From a bacterium (GTDB taxonomy: Bacteria > Verrucomicrobiota > Verrucomicrobiae > JAJYAR01), in contig JAJYAR010000146.1 in NCBI GenBank assembly GCA_021779435.1, positions 1 through 6,865 on the forward strand: DNA of 6,865 nucleotides, given 5' to 3'. The notes beneath the pieces are model-generated. The model ran no database searches. It had not been told where the DNA came from and saw nothing but the letters and a program-made list of their open reading frames with translations. Of this stretch, positions 259-6,865 are shown in pieces. The translations under genes and the position numbers were made by a program. Each line of letters starts with the position of its first letter. The first letter of the stretch is position 1.

Positions 259-1854
259 ATGGCCACTTTGCGCGAGCGAATCGTCGAGATTGCGAGGACA
301 CTCCCTCCTGCGCCGCGCGTATTCGCTGAACTCGGCCGACTGCTGCGCGACCCAAATGCGGCTCTCGACGAGATTGCCGCGCTGGTGAAGCGCGACGCGA
401 CCCTCGCGGCGCACGTCATCCGCGTCAGCAACAGCACTTTCTTCGGGGGCGAGCAGCCAACGGGTTCCGTGGAAGAGGCGGTGGGCCGCATCGGCTTCCA
501 GGAGGTTTTTCGCGTGGTCGGGCGCGTCTCGAGCGAGCAATTGGTCGACCGTCCGCTCGCCGCGTACGGAATCGATCCCGGCGAGCTTCGCGAACACATG
601 CTGCGGACCGCACTCGCGTGTGAGGATCTCGCTACGGAGTGCGGACTTGATCCACGCAGCGCCTACACGGCGGGCTTGTTGCGGCCGATCGGGCTGCTGG
701 TGCTCGACCGACTCGCCGAGCAGTACGGCAACATTGCGCCCTACCATCCGGCGCATGATGCGGACTATCTGGCTTGGGAAGGCCGCTCGTTCGGACTGCC
801 GAGTTGCGACGTCGCCGCGATGGTGCTGCGGGAATGGAGCTTTCCGACCGAAATCGTGGAAGCGGTCCAGTCCCACTATCTTCTCCGTTCCGGGGACTTG
901 GAGCACCGGCTTGCCTGCGTCCTGAACCTGGCCAGCGGCCTGGTGGCGAACGACGGCTGCGGATTGCTCGGGGAGATGACGCATTGGAGTGCCGCGGAGT
1001 GGAAATTGGAGGCGCTCGGCATGACGGCAGACCGCCTGGAGGCGGCGGGCGAACGGGCGCGTAGTGCATTCGTCGAGGTCGTGAAGCTGCTCGGCCCGGA
1101 CGCGCCGCCGCTCAAGCCGGCTCCCGAAAAAACGACCGGAGGCCACGGTGCGCCGACGGTCGAATCCAGCAACTTTCCGCTGCACGTGCGTGTTGTTCAG
1201 GCGAACGATGAACCGCCCGTGCAAATCACAACCGCCGCGCCCGCCGAGCCCCTTCCGGCCAGCCCCAACCTCGAGGTCGCGGCGGCCGTGAGCCGGCCGC
1301 ACGACGACTTCACGTCCTTTATGCGGAGCTACCAGGACATGGTTTACTCGACCGCCGCGCGTATCACCGGCAACGATGCGCAGGCCGAGGACATTTCCCA
1401 GGAAGTGTTCGTGAAGGCGTATGAAAATTTCGAGGACCTCAGCACCAGTCCCACCGCGGGGGGATGGCTGAAGACCGTCGCCACCAATCTCTCCCTCAAT
1501 CACCTCTCGCGCTACCGAAGCCGGTGGCGGTTCTTCTCGGAATTCCGCAGGGCGGGGGACGAGGGCTCCGATCCGGATGACTCCCCGATGGAGTTTGCTG
1601 CACCGGATGCATTCTTTGCCGAACTCGACGCCGCCGACCGGCGCGCCATGATCGACGAGGCGCTCGCGCGGCTTCCGGAGCATCAGCGCGTGCCGCTGGT
1701 TCTCTACCATTTCGAAGACATGCCCTACGAGGAGATCGCCAAGGCTCTGCGGATCTCGCTCGCCAAGGTCAAAACCGACATCCTCCGCGCCCGCGCGGCA
1801 CTCGCGAAGACGCTGAGGCGGGGTGCCATGCACAACGAAAAGCTCACTTCCTGA
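259..1854 (+). CDS. HDOD domain - ECF sigma factor fusion protein
   Basis: This 531-aa cytoplasmic protein has two parts. Residues ~5-205 are an HDOD signalling domain: an LPPAPRV start, then DATLAAHVIRVSNSTFF (compare the family's DP.L...LL+.ANS..F), a helical core with TAGLLRPIGLLVL, and FPTEIVEAVQSHY. A helical tail reaches ~280. Residues ~281-345 are a Pro/Ala-rich linker. Residues ~351-425 are sigma region 2 (MVYSTAARITGNDAQAEDISQEVF, GWLKTVATN). Residues ~460-520 are region 4, with a helix-turn-helix (LPEHQRVPLVLYHFEDMPYEEIA, VKTDILRARAAL). It should recruit RNA polymerase to specific promoters, with the HDOD part acting as input or docking module; that role is inferred. The usual HD metal-ligand pair is replaced by Arg-Pro (142-143), so phosphohydrolase activity is unlikely. 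No stop interrupts the join. ATG 259 gives a full HDOD start but lacks a Shine-Dalgarno; GTG 1288 or ATG 1321 could start a sigma-only product. A membrane protein gene follows after 7 bp. Confidence 0.88.
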   Translation: MATLRERIVEIARTLPPAPRVFAELGRLLRDPNAALDEIAALVKRDATLAAHVIRVSNSTFFGGEQPTGSVEEAVGRIGFQEVFRVVGRVSSEQLVDRPLAAYGIDPGELREHMLRTALACEDLATECGLDPRSAYTAGLLRPIGLLVLDRLAEQYGNIAPYHPAHDADYLAWEGRSFGLPSCDVAAMVLREWSFPTEIVEAVQSHYLLRSGDLEHRLACVLNLASGLVANDGCGLLGEMTHWSAAEWKLEALGMTADRLEAAGERARSAFVEVVKLLGPDAPPLKPAPEKTTGGHGAPTVESSNFPLHVRVVQANDEPPVQITTAAPAEPLPASPNLEVAAAVSRPHDDFTSFMRSYQDMVYSTAARITGNDAQAEDISQEVFVKAYENFEDLSTSPTAGGWLKTVATNLSLNHLSRYRSRWRFFSEFRRAGDEGSDPDDSPMEFAAPDAFFAELDAADRRAMIDEALARLPEHQRVPLVLYHFEDMPYEEIAKALRISLAKVKTDILRARAALAKTLRRGAMHNEKLTS

Positions 1855-1861
1855 CCACGCC

Positions 1862-2323
1862 ATGACTCCTTTGGAACAACAGAAACTCGAAGGTCTGGTC
1901 CGAGACGCGGTGCGCGATCTGCCGCCGCGCAAGGCCCCGGCGTCCCTCGAGGAGCGCGTAAATGCCGAGATACTTCGTCGCGCTTCGCTGCCGTGGTGGC
2001 GCAGGTCCTACCGGAATTGGCCGGTATCCGCCCGCATCGGCTTCGGCGCCGTCTGCGTCGCGATCGTTCGCGCGCTGTTCGTGGCGTCCGGTTGGATCCG
2101 TGACGGCTTCGCCGGTCAGAACAACGCCGGGTTCCAGCCGGAGCTCGAGTCGCTCCGCGTCTGCGGCCGGCTGTTCGCCACCGCCCTGGATGTGGCCGGA
2201 ACCCTGGTGTCGAGCCTCCCGGCCCTTTGGCTTTACGGCGGTGCCGCCTTGGTCGTCGCGCTCTACCTGACCCTCGTCGGGCTCGGTGCCGCCGCCTACA
2301 GAACCCTTTACGCCAGCTCCTGA
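1862..2323 (+). CDS. Small membrane protein, putative anti-sigma/partner of the upstream sigma factor
   Basis: The protein has 153 aa. Its cytoplasmic-looking N-terminus (1-55) is charged and carries DLPPRKAPASLEERVNAEIL followed by LPWWRRSYRNWP. I associate this pattern with small proteins encoded just after ECF sigma genes in Opitutaceae-like bacteria, from memory and unchecked. A membrane helix follows at ~57-79. Residues ~102-120 form a hydrophobic or amphipathic stretch and ~121-146 a second clear membrane helix. The only cysteines, C64 and C101, do not form the HxxxCxxC zinc motif of classical anti-sigma factors, so the mode of binding, if any, is unknown. The ATG at 1862 lies 7 bp after the sigma gene stop. 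An in-frame ATG at 1823 would overlap that gene by 32 bp and add 13 residues; it is less likely because the conserved-looking block begins after 1862. Position between a sigma gene and an envelope protein gene suggests a membrane regulator. No enzymatic motif is visible. Confidence 0.75.
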   Translation: MTPLEQQKLEGLVRDAVRDLPPRKAPASLEERVNAEILRRASLPWWRRSYRNWPVSARIGFGAVCVAIVRALFVASGWIRDGFAGQNNAGFQPELESLRVCGRLFATALDVAGTLVSSLPALWLYGGAALVVALYLTLVGLGAAAYRTLYASS

Positions 2324-4309: not shown

Positions 4310-4801
4310 ATGGCACAGTCCGCACCCGTCGTCGGGATCATCATGGGCAGCACGTCGGATTGGGAGACGATGCAGCATTGCGCGAAGACGCTCGATCAGC
4401 TCGGCGTCTCCTACGAGAAGCGCGTAATCAGCGCGCACCGGACACCCCAGCTTGCGTTTGAGTGGTGCGGCGGGGCGCAGGGCCGGGGCCTGAAGGTGAT
4501 CATCGCCGCCGCGGGCGGCGCAGCCCACCTTGCCGGCGTGGCCGCGGCGCTCACTCCTCTTCCCGTGCTCGGCGTGCCAATGGAGTCCGCTTCGCTGAAA
4601 GGCATGGATTCGCTCCTTTCCATGGTGCAGATGCCCGGTGGCGTGCCGGTTGGCACGTTTGCGATCGGCAAGCCGGGTGCGATCAACGCCGCGCTCTTTG
4701 CCGTGGCGATCCTCGCACTGGCTGATCCGGCCGCTAGGAAGGCGCTCGACGATTACCGCGCCACGCAGACCAGGAAGGTGATCGAGGCGACGCTGCCCTG
4801 A
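4310..4801 (+). CDS. purE: PurE, N5-carboxyaminoimidazole ribonucleotide mutase (class I)
   Basis: This cytoplasmic enzyme of de novo purine synthesis converts N5-CAIR, made by PurK, to CAIR. The 163-aa length is normal for class I PurE. Visible motifs are the N-terminal [13 protein letters not shown] (9-21), the catalytic SAHRTP loop with His43 (41-46), [13 protein letters not shown] (64-76), [10 protein letters not shown] (84-93), the [23 protein letters not shown] block (98-120) and GAINAALFA (123-131). The SAHRTP and MP.GVPV.T.AIG signatures indicate the bacterial PurK-dependent class rather than the class II AIR carboxylase. No purK lies in the window: the next gene downstream is convergent, so purE appears monocistronic or at the end of its unit. 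No Shine-Dalgarno precedes the ATG. Identification is secure. Confidence 0.97.
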
Positions 4802-4832: not shown

Positions 4833-4908
4833 GTAGGTTGCGAGCTCGCTCGCAACGTTGCGCGCAACCGGCTGAGGCGGGGCAAGCCTCCCGCGTCGCG
4901 GCTGCTAC
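4833..4908. repeat. REP-like palindrome cluster between convergent genes
   Basis: The short gap between purE and the convergent nucleotidyltransferase gene is packed with symmetry. GTTGCGAGC (4837-4845) pairs perfectly with GCTCGCAAC (4848-4856). It is directly followed by the 12-base palindrome GTTGCGCGCAAC (4857-4868). A third hairpin can form from GAGGC/GCCTC (4874-4878 with 4886-4890) or GCGGG/CCCGC (4877-4881 with 4890-4894). The outer edges carry GTAG (4833-4836) and CTAC (4905-4908), so the block is roughly flanked by inverted ends, the right one running into the stop codon of the - strand gene. This resembles bacterial REP/BIME elements and would also work as a bidirectional terminator. 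Copy number elsewhere in the genome cannot be seen here. Confidence 0.5.
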
Positions 4909-5513
4909 GACTTCCCCGTCAACGCGGCGTAGTCCTCCGGCGTGTCGAGGTCCAGCGCCAGCTCGGGCATTTCGACTGCGGCGACCTGTGAGGCGTCGCC
5001 GTTGAGGAGGGCTCGCGCGCCTTCCTCCCCGGTGAGTGCTCCGAGGGTGGCAAAGTGTTCGCGCAGGAACAGCGCGGGCGCGCCCTGGCGTCCCGAGTAG
5101 CGCGACGCGACAATGGAGCGGCCGGTGTCGCGCCGGGCCGCAAGCAGCCGTCCGATGCTGTCCGCCGAAAACGCCGGCTGATCGCACAGGGCGATCACGG
5201 CACCATCGAGCATCCGCGAAAATTGCTGAAGGGCCGTGATGCCCGTGCGGATCGACGCCGCCATGCCTTCCGCCCACGCGGCGTTTTCCGTGACGATGAC
5301 AGGATGACGGGTGAGGGCCGGCCGGATCTTTTCCGCATTTGCCCCCAGCACGACAATGACCGGCCAGGTGGGTGAGCCGAGCGCTGCCTCGACGGCGCGC
5401 ACGATCAGCGGCTTGCCCTCCACGGCCAGCAACTGTTTCGGCATGCCCATGCGCGTCGAAGCTCCTGCGGCGAGGATGATCGCGCCGAAATGGACGGGGC
5501 GGAGGTCAGTCAT
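4905..5513 (-). CDS. MocA/MobA-like molybdenum cofactor nucleotidyltransferase
   Basis: This 202-aa cytoplasmic transferase of the MobA-like NTP-transferase family is of the MocA (MPT cytidylyltransferase) type, which attaches CMP to the molybdopterin cofactor. Motifs in order: the nucleotide-binding loop LAAGASTRMGMPKQLL (14-29), VVLGAN (54-59), ENAAWAEGMAASIRTG (76-91), the metal/nucleotide region ALCDQPAF (108-115), GRQGAPALFL (141-150), LTGEEGARALL (160-170) and DLDTPEDY (188-195). GxPKxLL and SIRTG are the form I expect in MocA rather than the MobA guanylyltransferase, but CTP versus GTP preference is not proven by eye. The start overlaps the end of the XdhC gene by 8 bp, implying translational coupling. 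The same pairing occurs as pucA/pucB in Bacillus subtilis purine catabolism, so it probably makes the cytosine dinucleotide cofactor for a xanthine-dehydrogenase-like enzyme encoded elsewhere. Confidence 0.88.
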   Translation of the reverse strand: MTDLRPVHFGAIILAAGASTRMGMPKQLLAVEGKPLIVRAVEAALGSPTWPVIVVLGANAEKIRPALTRHPVIVTENAAWAEGMAASIRTGITALQQFSRMLDGAVIALCDQPAFSADSIGRLLAARRDTGRSIVASRYSGRQGAPALFLREHFATLGALTGEEGARALLNGDASQVAAVEMPELALDLDTPEDYAALTGKS

Positions 5514-6498
5514 GGATCGGCATGGACCGCTCCTTCAGCGGCTGGGCGCTGCGTCCGCCGAGGACCGCCTGGATTTCGGCGACGATCGCGAGTGCAACCT
5601 GTTCGGGTCCGTCAGCCCCCAGATCGAGGCCCACGGGAGCGTGGAACCGCGCGAGCTGGGAGGCCGTGGGCTCGAAACCGGAGGCGCGAAGGTCGGCCAG
5701 GATCCTCTCGGCGCGCTTGCGGGGGCCGAGCAGGCCGAGATAGGGGAGCTCCTTTGGAAGCAGCGCACGCAGGAGTGGCACGTCGTGAATGTAGTGGTGG
5801 GTCATCACCACGGCGACCGAGCGGTCGTCCGGTGCGGCTTTCGTCGCCAGCGTTTCCGCGGGTCCGACGATCACGTGTTCGGCCGAGGGAAAACGCTCGG
5901 CCGTCGCGAAGGCGGCGCGCGGGTCCGCGACCGTCACGGACCAGCCGAGCGACGCTCCGAGACGTGCGACGGGCCGCGCGTCTTCGCCCGCGCCAAAGAC
6001 GCAGAGCCTGAGAGGCGGCGGCACGGTCTGCGCGAACAGGACACTCGTGGTCGCGGCGGCCTCCGCCTCGACGCGCGTGCCCGCTTCGCCCTCGACGCCG
6101 CAGTCATGGGCGACGACGACGTGCGTGGGCCGCCGGGCCGCAAAATTCCTGGCGAGCGCGTCCGCCCACCGCGGCCGTGCCGGAACCGGTTCGATGAGGA
6201 CCTTCACGACGCCGTGACATCCCAGCCCAACGCCCCAGACAAGGTCGTTTTCCGTGGTGGTGTCGTAGATCGCCGTCTCCGACTTCCGCGTGATCCCGAC
6301 ATGCCGGGCACGGGCAATCACGTCCTCCTCCAGGCATCCTCCGCTGATCGAGCCGATGCGGCGGCCATCCCCCAGCAGCAGCAGCCGAGCGCCGGGGCGC
6401 CGGTACGACGAGCCCTCGACGCTGACGAGTGTGGCCAGGACTGCGGGAGCGGAAGGAGCTTCCGAAAGCGCGCGAACGATGGCCTGCAACTCATTCAT
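5506..6498 (-). CDS. XdhC/CoxI family molybdenum-enzyme maturation factor
   Basis: The protein has 330 aa. XdhC-type proteins bind the molybdenum cofactor, promote its sulfuration and deliver it to xanthine-dehydrogenase-like hydroxylases in the cytoplasm. The N-terminal XdhC/CoxI domain shows ATLVSVEGSSYRRPGARLLL (22-41) and IGSISGGCLEEDV (48-60), with the family cysteine at C55, and GVGLGCHG (89-96) with a second cysteine, C94. The C-terminal Rossmann domain has LCVFGAGEDARPVARL (165-180), VADPR (190-194), VMTHHYIHDVPLL (231-243), YLGLLGPRKRAERIL (253-267) and PVGLDLGADGPEQVALAIVAEI (288-309). The start at 6498 gives MNELQAIV, the normal beginning. The frame stays open to an ATG at 6687, but that extension is basic, low in structure and covers the divergent promoter region. 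It forms an operon with the overlapping MocA-like gene. The hydroxylase structural genes are not in view, so the target enzyme is unknown. Confidence 0.9.
   Translation of the reverse strand: MNELQAIVRALSEAPSAPAVLATLVSVEGSSYRRPGARLLLLGDGRRIGSISGGCLEEDVIARARHVGITRKSETAIYDTTTENDLVWGVGLGCHGVVKVLIEPVPARPRWADALARNFAARRPTHVVVAHDCGVEGEAGTRVEAEAAATTSVLFAQTVPPPLRLCVFGAGEDARPVARLGASLGWSVTVADPRAAFATAERFPSAEHVIVGPAETLATKAAPDDRSVAVVMTHHYIHDVPLLRALLPKELPYLGLLGPRKRAERILADLRASGFEPTASQLARFHAPVGLDLGADGPEQVALAIVAEIQAVLGGRSAQPLKERSMPIHD
5530..5535 (-). promoter_or_regulatory. Shine-Dalgarno sequence AAGGAG inside the end of the XdhC gene
   Basis: Read on the - strand, AAGGAG is the only strong ribosome binding site I found near a start in this window. 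It sits 6 bases before an ATG (5523-5521) that is in the XdhC frame and would give only MPIHD before the XdhC stop. It lies 16 bases before the true ATG of the MocA-like gene (5513). The frame of the latter is closed by a TGA eight codons upstream, so no earlier start is possible. The arrangement suggests that ribosomes reading or re-initiating through the short tail reach the overlapping ATGACTGA and restart. Confidence 0.5.
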
Positions 6499-6573
6499 TG
6501 ATTCCGGATTGTCTGTCGGCCCGCGGGGTTGGCAAGCGTGCCGCGCAACGCCCCTGCCTCGCCTCGTGGTCCT

Positions 6574-6640
6574 GAAGACGTCGATACGTCCTTGTCCGTC
6601 GGCGCAAGTTCTCCACGATCGTGCCGCTTTCCGAAGACGT
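6574..6640. promoter_or_regulatory. Short palindromes in the divergent xdhC / TonB-receptor intergenic region
   Basis: The 158-bp gap 6499-6656 lies between divergent genes and should hold promoters for both. Three small symmetric or repeated elements are visible: GACGT-CGAT-ACGTC (6577-6590), the perfect 10-bp palindrome CACGATCGTG (6614-6623), and the direct repeat GAAGACGT (6574-6581 and 6633-6640). They could be operator sites for a shared regulator. No convincing -35/-10 pair is evident and short palindromes arise easily by chance at this GC content. Confidence 0.25.
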
Positions 6641-6656
6641 TCGCTTTCAACTTTCC

Positions 6657-6865
6657 ATGCCGGCCCTCTCGCTTTCGACCATCGCACGATTCACAGCGGC
6701 GCTCGCGCTCTCCAGCGCGGGAATAGTCGCACACGCCCAGCTCGTTGCGGAGACCAACGCGCAGCTGATGCCTGCGTATGTCGTCACCGGATCCAACATC
6801 CCCTTGTCGCACGAGGACATGTGGCTCCCCGTCACGGAGCTGGGCCGGTCGCGCATCGAATCGTC
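6657..6865 (+). CDS. TonB-dependent-receptor-like protein, N-terminal fragment (cut by window end)
   Basis: The first 69 codons of an open frame run off the right edge. Residues 1-28 look like a signal peptide: M-PALSLSTIAR, a hydrophobic run TAALALSSAGIV, then AHA|Q. The mature start is QLVAETNAQLMPAYVVTGSN followed by IP. A VVTGSNIP-like strand leading into a plug such as WLPVTELGRSRIESS (54-68) is typical of the beginning of the plug domain of outer membrane TonB-dependent receptors, especially in Opitutaceae-type genomes. The protein would sit in the outer membrane and import a ligand using TonB energy; the substrate cannot be told. It is divergent from the XdhC operon. No Shine-Dalgarno precedes the ATG; the start was chosen for its signal peptide. 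The barrel is not in view, so the family call rests on the N-terminus only. Confidence 0.62.
   Translation, partial: MPALSLSTIARFTAALALSSAGIVAHAQLVAETNAQLMPAYVVTGSNIPLSHEDMWLPVTELGRSRIES

Follow-up and report, generated by a model that had tools for sequence, protein, structure and literature searches.

A conserved HDOD-ECF sigma factor fusion with a promoter-like element inside its interdomain linker

Introduction

ECF sigma factors recognize two-box promoters whose -35 element is of the AAC type and whose -10 element is of the CGT type, and in some of them, such as ECF42 and ECF44, a regulatory part is fused to the sigma factor. The protein of this study resembles ECF36, ECF41, ECF42, ECF44, and ECF56 in that a single polypeptide contains a sigma2-sigma4 core and, covalently linked to it, a regulatory part. 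In ECF56 this part is a SnoaL_2 extension at the C terminus, and ECF41 likewise carries a fused regulatory domain, whereas the extension described here is N-terminal, consists of an HDOD domain, and is joined to the sigma factor via a promoter-like element. ECF36 has N-terminal transmembrane/DUF2275 extensions (PMC8999054), and HDOD is not mentioned in that paper. Among open PMC papers, we found no description of an HDOD-sigma fusion class.

Two other systems are related to the present one. In Streptomyces, two promoters give rise to two ECF sigma forms, SigR and SigR', one of which carries 55 additional N-terminal residues; the upstream sigR promoter is sigma dependent and makes the extended, short-lived form (PMC4921905). 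The likeness, which for the fusion is a proposed one, lies in two promoters and two forms of an ECF sigma factor, with one form extended at the N terminus and one promoter dependent on sigma; in contrast to sigR, the sigma-type promoter-like element reported here is located inside the coding sequence and would give a transcript devoid of HDOD, and the extension is a whole domain. In Pseudomonas fluorescens, the HDOD protein SadB acts upstream of the sigma factor AlgU; SadB is a separate protein with an HDOD and a YbaK-like domain, which binds c-di-GMP and activates algU transcription, and the mechanistic role of HDOD domains is reportedly not established (PMC6543031). Unlike SadB, the HDOD domain studied here is part of the sigma protein.

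A further closely related system consists of standalone sigma factors of Opitutaceae encoded at the same locus (e.g., L004, L005, and L006), for which the sigma half is about 55 to 77% identical in the listed rows. They share with the fusion the promoter-like element, the gene for a membrane protein, purE, and mostly the RDD gene but differ from it in that they lack HDOD and have an ATG directly after the element.

Results

The window, i.e., the entire stretch of 6,865 nucleotides analyzed, corresponds to a verrucomicrobial contig, and its features are listed in Table 1. The preliminary description of this DNA had reported HDOD, sigma region 2, and sigma region 4 in one uninterrupted frame and had called for a domain search. 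Both the open reading frame and Pfam confirmed this arrangement: in the 531-amino-acid protein, residues 15 to 207 matched HDOD (E = 8e-39), residues 355 to 420 matched Sigma70_r2 (6e-14), and residues 463 to 515 matched Sigma70_r4_2 (1e-15), all above the cut-off. The sigma half matched only the Pfam models of regions 2 and 4, regions 1.1 and 3 being absent, which fits an ECF (group IV) factor, and the NCBIfam sigma70-ECF superfamily model was matched with 85.4 bits against a cut-off of 42.9. Since the protein ends 16 residues after the region 4 match, there is no C-terminal regulatory domain as in ECF41 and ECF56. A linker is present between the two halves as described, but it extends from about residue 279 to 350 instead of over some 65 residues. 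AlphaFold2, run on a 77-row alignment, predicted HDOD and both sigma domains at high confidence; residues 289 to 318 and 320 to 343 had pLDDT values below 50, and the pTM of the fusion was 0.59.

Table 1. Features of the window
Feature	Position	Strand	Basis and remarks
HDOD-ECF sigma fusion gene	259..1854	+	531 aa, ATG start; ORF, Pfam, same architecture in homologues
HDOD domain	301..879	+	Residues 15-207; Pfam; GLLRPIG at 139-145; Foldseek
Disordered linker (residues 279-350)	1093..1308	+	Hypervariable save for the embedded element; AlphaFold2, alignments
-35 box AGCAACTT of the embedded element, consensus TGC[A/G]ACTT	1168..1175	+	Top matrix site of the window, 21.6 vs 4.5
-10 box CGTGTT of the embedded element	1189..1194	+	Spacer 13; GTT is the V312 codon; A/T third base in 8/8 fusions
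GCG codon at the position of the standalone ATG	1201..1203	+	Codon placing; presumably close to where transcription is predicted to start
GTG in frame (Val of PPVQ), putative start codon of a short sigma	1219..1221	+	GTG in 8/8 fusions
Sigma region 2	1321..1518	+	Pfam
Sigma region 4 (Sigma70_r4_2)	1645..1803	+	Pfam
Putative membrane anti-sigma, 153 aa, two hydrophobic segments	1862..2323	+	Follows sigma in 22/24 loci; hydropathy
RDD-family membrane protein, 597 aa	2328..4121	+	Pfam RDD; locus order
purE, frequent locus neighbour	4310..4801	+	Pfam, NCBIfam, locus comparison
MocA-like molybdenum cofactor cytidylyltransferase	4905-5513	-	Pfam/NCBIfam, below NCBIfam equivalog cut-off
XdhC-type maturation protein, overlaps the MocA-like gene	5506-6687	-	Pfam/NCBIfam, below NCBIfam equivalog cut-off

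A protein search returned 193 matches at E ≤ 1e-3, of which 120 were listed, namely, the window's own protein and 119 others that are 50 to 76% identical to it. All 120 contain PF08668, PF04542, and PF08281. A profile search returned 240 matches; nine of the 120 listed were new with respect to the protein search. Those listed homologues that are named by organism were assigned to Opitutus, Lacunisphaera, Didemnitutus, Opitutaceae, or Opitutae; one of them is from Opitutus sp. ER46 (P0028). The data support the view that HDOD has been conserved as a module in covalent linkage with an ECF sigma factor.

The 153-amino-acid protein encoded downstream has a homologue that comes after the sigma gene in 22 of 24 loci; L001 is the only fusion among these 24. 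It matched no Pfam family, and its one match to an NCBIfam anti-sigma model was far under the cut-off (13.6 versus 225 bits). Upstream of sigma, the related loci contain, variously, genes for PEPCK, separate HDOD proteins, PutA, or an ammonium transporter. Judged by the locus order of fused and unfused relatives, the sigma half belongs to a sigma lineage with its own genomic place, and HDOD is an addition. With respect to anti-phage defence, three proteins of the window gave no PADLOC match.

The HDOD profile is covered almost completely (PF08668 positions 1 to 194 of 196; 133.5 bits). The motif GLLRPIG, including R142, which is invariant in 77 aligned fusions, stands where catalytic HD proteins carry the HD dyad. 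By its sequence, the HDOD of the fusion has no catalytic HD dyad and should act by binding. Foldseek matches in the PDB were SadB (9qzk, first by E value), 3hc1, and 3m1t. Such a domain may control the sigma factor in cis. The fusion had been set against control by a separate anti-sigma protein; the covalent attachment stands, but the conserved membrane protein gene adjoining sigma indicates that HDOD probably adds to anti-sigma-type control. Alternatively, HDOD could be a passive or localizing tag, the membrane protein alone controlling sigma, as perhaps in the standalone orthologues. This would agree with the identical neighbours of fused and unfused loci, with the scattering of fused among unfused sigmas (see below), and with the pTM of 0.59 and the disordered linker, which give no sign of a fixed HDOD-sigma contact. 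The HDOD half is nevertheless constrained, as 24 of the 83 columns invariant in the 77 fusions fall in residues 1 to 285, and we consider a mere tag unlikely, although it is the alternative to be taken most seriously.

We then compared the linker DNA with the region upstream of standalone orthologues at the same locus. These carry the element TGC[A/G]ACTTT-N12/13-CGTGTTC, followed in most of them by about five bases and the ATG, an arrangement that resembles an ECF promoter giving a leaderless message. The fusion contains this element as well, but within its translated coding sequence. To arrive at a set of loci, 99 sigma loci were reduced to 80 by removing identical upstream DNA (loci numbered 57 to 71 and 77 to 135 were left out); L020, in which no site was present, was dropped, and the remainder was split into sets of 52, 19, and 8. 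A promoter matrix trained on the 52 standalone promoters, with no fusion in the training set, identified positions 1168 to 1195 as the best site of the window with a score of 21.6, compared to 4.5 for the runner-up, and in all seven other fusion loci, the top site of the whole stretch was equally the linker. Of the 52 standalones, 32 have a spacer of 12 nucleotides and 20 have one of 13 nucleotides; in each of the eight fusions, its length is 13. The window copy deviates from the consensus, with AGC for TGC and CGTGTTG for CGTGTTC. In 127 of 129 fusion proteins, the spacing of the element, as judged with a loose pattern, is fixed within an otherwise hypervariable linker; the remaining two, P0105 and P0108, are fusions without the element. 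From residue 244 to residue 350, no column of the 77 aligned fusions is invariant except V312, whose invariance is partly an accident of the alignment since two rows lack the element. The linker stretch appears to serve as both a protein hinge and a promoter.

Another reading is that the element is a relic, in which case the fusion would have arisen by read-through of an intergenic promoter, the element would have been kept by descent without present function, and HDOD-sigma would work in its full-length form only. Homology of the linker DNA to standalone promoters, the existence of the two fusions that live without the element, the off-consensus copy in the window, and the fact that sites elsewhere in fusion genomes do not exceed the control at one mismatch (see below) are compatible with this possibility. 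It is at odds, however, with the spacing maintained in nearly all fusions despite the hypervariable rest of the linker and with the third base of the -10 valine codon described next; we thus regard a functionless relic as rather improbable.

Several observations bear on whether the DNA or the peptide is constrained. (i) Among 136 fully conserved degenerate codons of the eight fusions, the -10 valine codon is the only one that ends in A or T in all eight. Two further codons have such a third base in seven of eight, namely, an Asp codon located five codons past this valine and a Glu codon near the end of the gene. GTT and GTA account for 12% of the remaining valine codons, and the frequencies of the individual genes multiply to 1.2e-8 over the eight genes if these are independent; since the eight sequences are related, this value is overstated and is not a strict probability. 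(ii) The residues of the linker element that vary are those left free by the DNA motif. (iii) A spacer of 12 nucleotides in most standalones, as opposed to 13 in the fusions, places the boxes in different relative frames, so that what is shared is not a peptide. These three facts favour a constraint at the DNA level. The stretch could still have been kept as a peptide (C[N/D]F-x4-[R/G]V[V/L]..ND..PV[Q/H]), for example one that is docked to or cut by a protease for release of sigma from HDOD, and not as a promoter. The peptide is recognizable in 127 of 129 fusions and also in 16 standalones without HDOD, in which there is no start at the usual place and the frame is open across the element, so that a peptide role is possible, above all for ND..PV[QH]; proteolytic release would also suit the missing Met (see below). 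However, the same DNA precedes the ATG of standalones, 32 of 52 of them with the frame-changing spacer, and the third base of the -10 valine codon is constrained. Although the downstream ND..PV[QH] could be a peptide signal, we consider it improbable that the element as a whole is one. At positions 1204 to 1227 and at the same place in relatives, we observed unusual third bases in the standalones (GAT in 53, CCA in 39, and GTG in 56 of 70).

The position of the standalone ATG is occupied by GCG (3), ACG (3), or GTG (2) in the eight fusions with DNA. Among the 70 standalones placed, it is ATG in 47 and GTG in 3, with the reservation that codon placing was automatic and is one codon off in some of the rows that lack a start. 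At the protein level, 125 of the 127 fusions with the element have a residue other than Met at this position (Val in 9), and two have Met; these numbers supersede an earlier, narrower count in which no Met was seen at the old start and 25 of 120 rows were unplaced. Hence, a free sigma factor starting there has mostly been lost. The GTG at 1219, six codons further downstream, is kept in all eight fusions, and in three proteobacterial orthologues (L018, L022, and L023), it is shortly preceded by a TGA in frame, implying that they start at this GTG or later. For these two reasons, GTG 1219 is the best candidate start of a short product, and the comparison points to it rather than to GTG 1288 or ATG 1321, the internal starts proposed initially. 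The proposal of two products needs to be modified in view of the missing Met, yet an internal transcript is plausible because the promoter-like element of standalones has been kept inside the fusion coding sequence; a short sigma made from such a transcript would start at GTG 1219 or later.

A standalone sigma of this kind, together with the promoter-like element and the membrane protein, also occurs beyond Verrucomicrobiota, in metagenome-assembled genomes labelled Proteobacteria (L017, L018, L022, and L023); at the expected ATG position, L018, L022, and L023 have an in-frame TGA. In the standalone sigmas of L160, L163, L167, and L009, another N-terminal open frame, some 40 residues long and partly alike among them, stands in front of the element.

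In the 252 family genomes, we counted 51 exact matches to TGCRACTTN{12,13}CGTGTTC, compared to 2 for the reversed control. A pattern with a spacer of 14 and up to one mismatch served as a negative control and gave 68 matches versus 84 for its reversed control, i.e., background, although the exact-motif search differed from it in allowing no mismatch. Downstream of 30 sites inspected, we found 16 sigma genes of this kind, 7 membrane proteins of the MKTFLK/MKSFF type with about 90 to 120 amino acids, 3 proteins of 80 amino acids, 1 of 75 amino acids, 1 AIM24 protein (Pfam), and, in 2 cases, nothing clear. The non-sigma genes behind the motif, encoding membrane proteins of 80 to 120 amino acids, AIM24, and, at one mismatch and hence perhaps by chance, a protein that looks DUF4097-like, were found at L117 to L120, L126, L128 to L133, L225, and L226; the site at L120, in front of a membrane protein gene, is in a fusion genome (G057). 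The genes behind the motif suggest an envelope-stress type of regulon. In the seven fusion genomes, a spacer of 13 with up to one mismatch gave two matches, which are the linkers of G063 and G001 (control, 0), and a spacer of 12 gave three matches versus four for the reversed control. The latter three comprise an exact site in G057, a site in G035 before an 81-amino-acid protein, and one in G063 before a 275-amino-acid protein with a signal-like N terminus; given the control, the G035 and G063 sites may be due to chance. Four of the seven genomes contain no site outside the linker at these spacers and up to one mismatch.

An in-frame fusion was found in at least 7 of the 252 family genomes (G001, G035, G057, G063, G096, G157, and G174), a lower bound since five candidates per genome were fully scored; most of the matches listed for the other genomes were the sigma half alone or HDOD alone. 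Among 384 genomes drawn from the class and searched at a cut-off of 1e-60, only three had fusions, all belonging to the same seven. The same architecture, which the preliminary description had suggested searching for, is hence conserved. With all 119 other listed homologues fused alike and seven genomes carrying the join in frame, an assembly or frameshift artefact that joins two genes, an alternative raised at the outset for which we found no support, is refuted and has practically no probability left.

In a tree of the sigma parts (80 rows; the bootstrap had not settled), the fusions were scattered, with seven changes, at least six of which were forced by well-supported branches, and a single clade of fused sigmas was rejected (AU test, p = 2e-6). 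By contrast, fused HDODs grouped together in a tree of 51 rows (33 fused and 18 separate; support, 96/92) and in a quick tree of 99 rows (33 fused and 66 separate; SH-aLRT, 87). The simplest reading of these trees is one fusion followed by repeated loss of HDOD. A single vertical origin is, however, not supported in full: the distances of HDOD and sigma correlated only moderately, with a Pearson coefficient of 0.50 among 127 rows (120 proteins and seven loci, at least three of the latter being duplicates), and in L001, the sigma is close to that of L027 but the HDOD is distant, so that lineages may have exchanged the 5' part. In G069 (L062, 6774-8420, - strand), an HDOD gene lies directly upstream of sigma without being fused to it; this pair, which has stops, had been considered a fusion intermediate and was dropped because its HDOD falls in another clade of the HDOD tree.

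Discussion

Computation established the architecture and its conservation, the promoter-like element and its constraint at the DNA level, and the presence of the same element before standalones and some membrane protein genes. From these data, we infer promoter activity, gating by HDOD, an anti-sigma role of the membrane protein, and a short product. We rate the chances as slightly better than even that this protein is an ECF sigma factor with a noncatalytic N-terminal HDOD input domain, joined via the former promoter of the sigma gene, in which HDOD gates sigma and sigma fires the promoter in the linker. The following steps are proposed. (i) Full-length HDOD-sigma would be made from a putative promoter upstream of position 259. 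(ii) In concert with the membrane protein encoded downstream, HDOD would gate or tether sigma in cis. (iii) This membrane protein (1862-2323) would hold sigma as a putative anti-sigma factor. (iv) Free sigma would fire the promoter embedded in its own linker (1168-1194). (v) Transcripts started in the linker, which lack HDOD, would express the putative anti-sigma factor and the RDD protein. (vi) Perhaps a short sigma would be made from GTG 1219 on these transcripts.

The evolutionary part of this proposal is evenly balanced in our view. It states that the linker doubles as the promoter of its own gene, that HDOD was fused through a promoter that sigma recognizes within its own coding sequence, and that HDOD has been discarded repeatedly in Opitutaceae, with lineages keeping either HDOD without the start codon or vice versa. 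A promoter retained downstream of HDOD would permit the input domain to be discarded without loss of expression.

With the fusion, HDOD would join the input modules known for ECF sigma factors, in a form that combines input and output in one molecule; through the fused sigma, HDOD action would become directly readable as transcription. If the embedded promoter is active, it would illustrate one concrete way for a signalling domain to become fused to a regulator and later to be lost from it while the downstream operon stays expressed.
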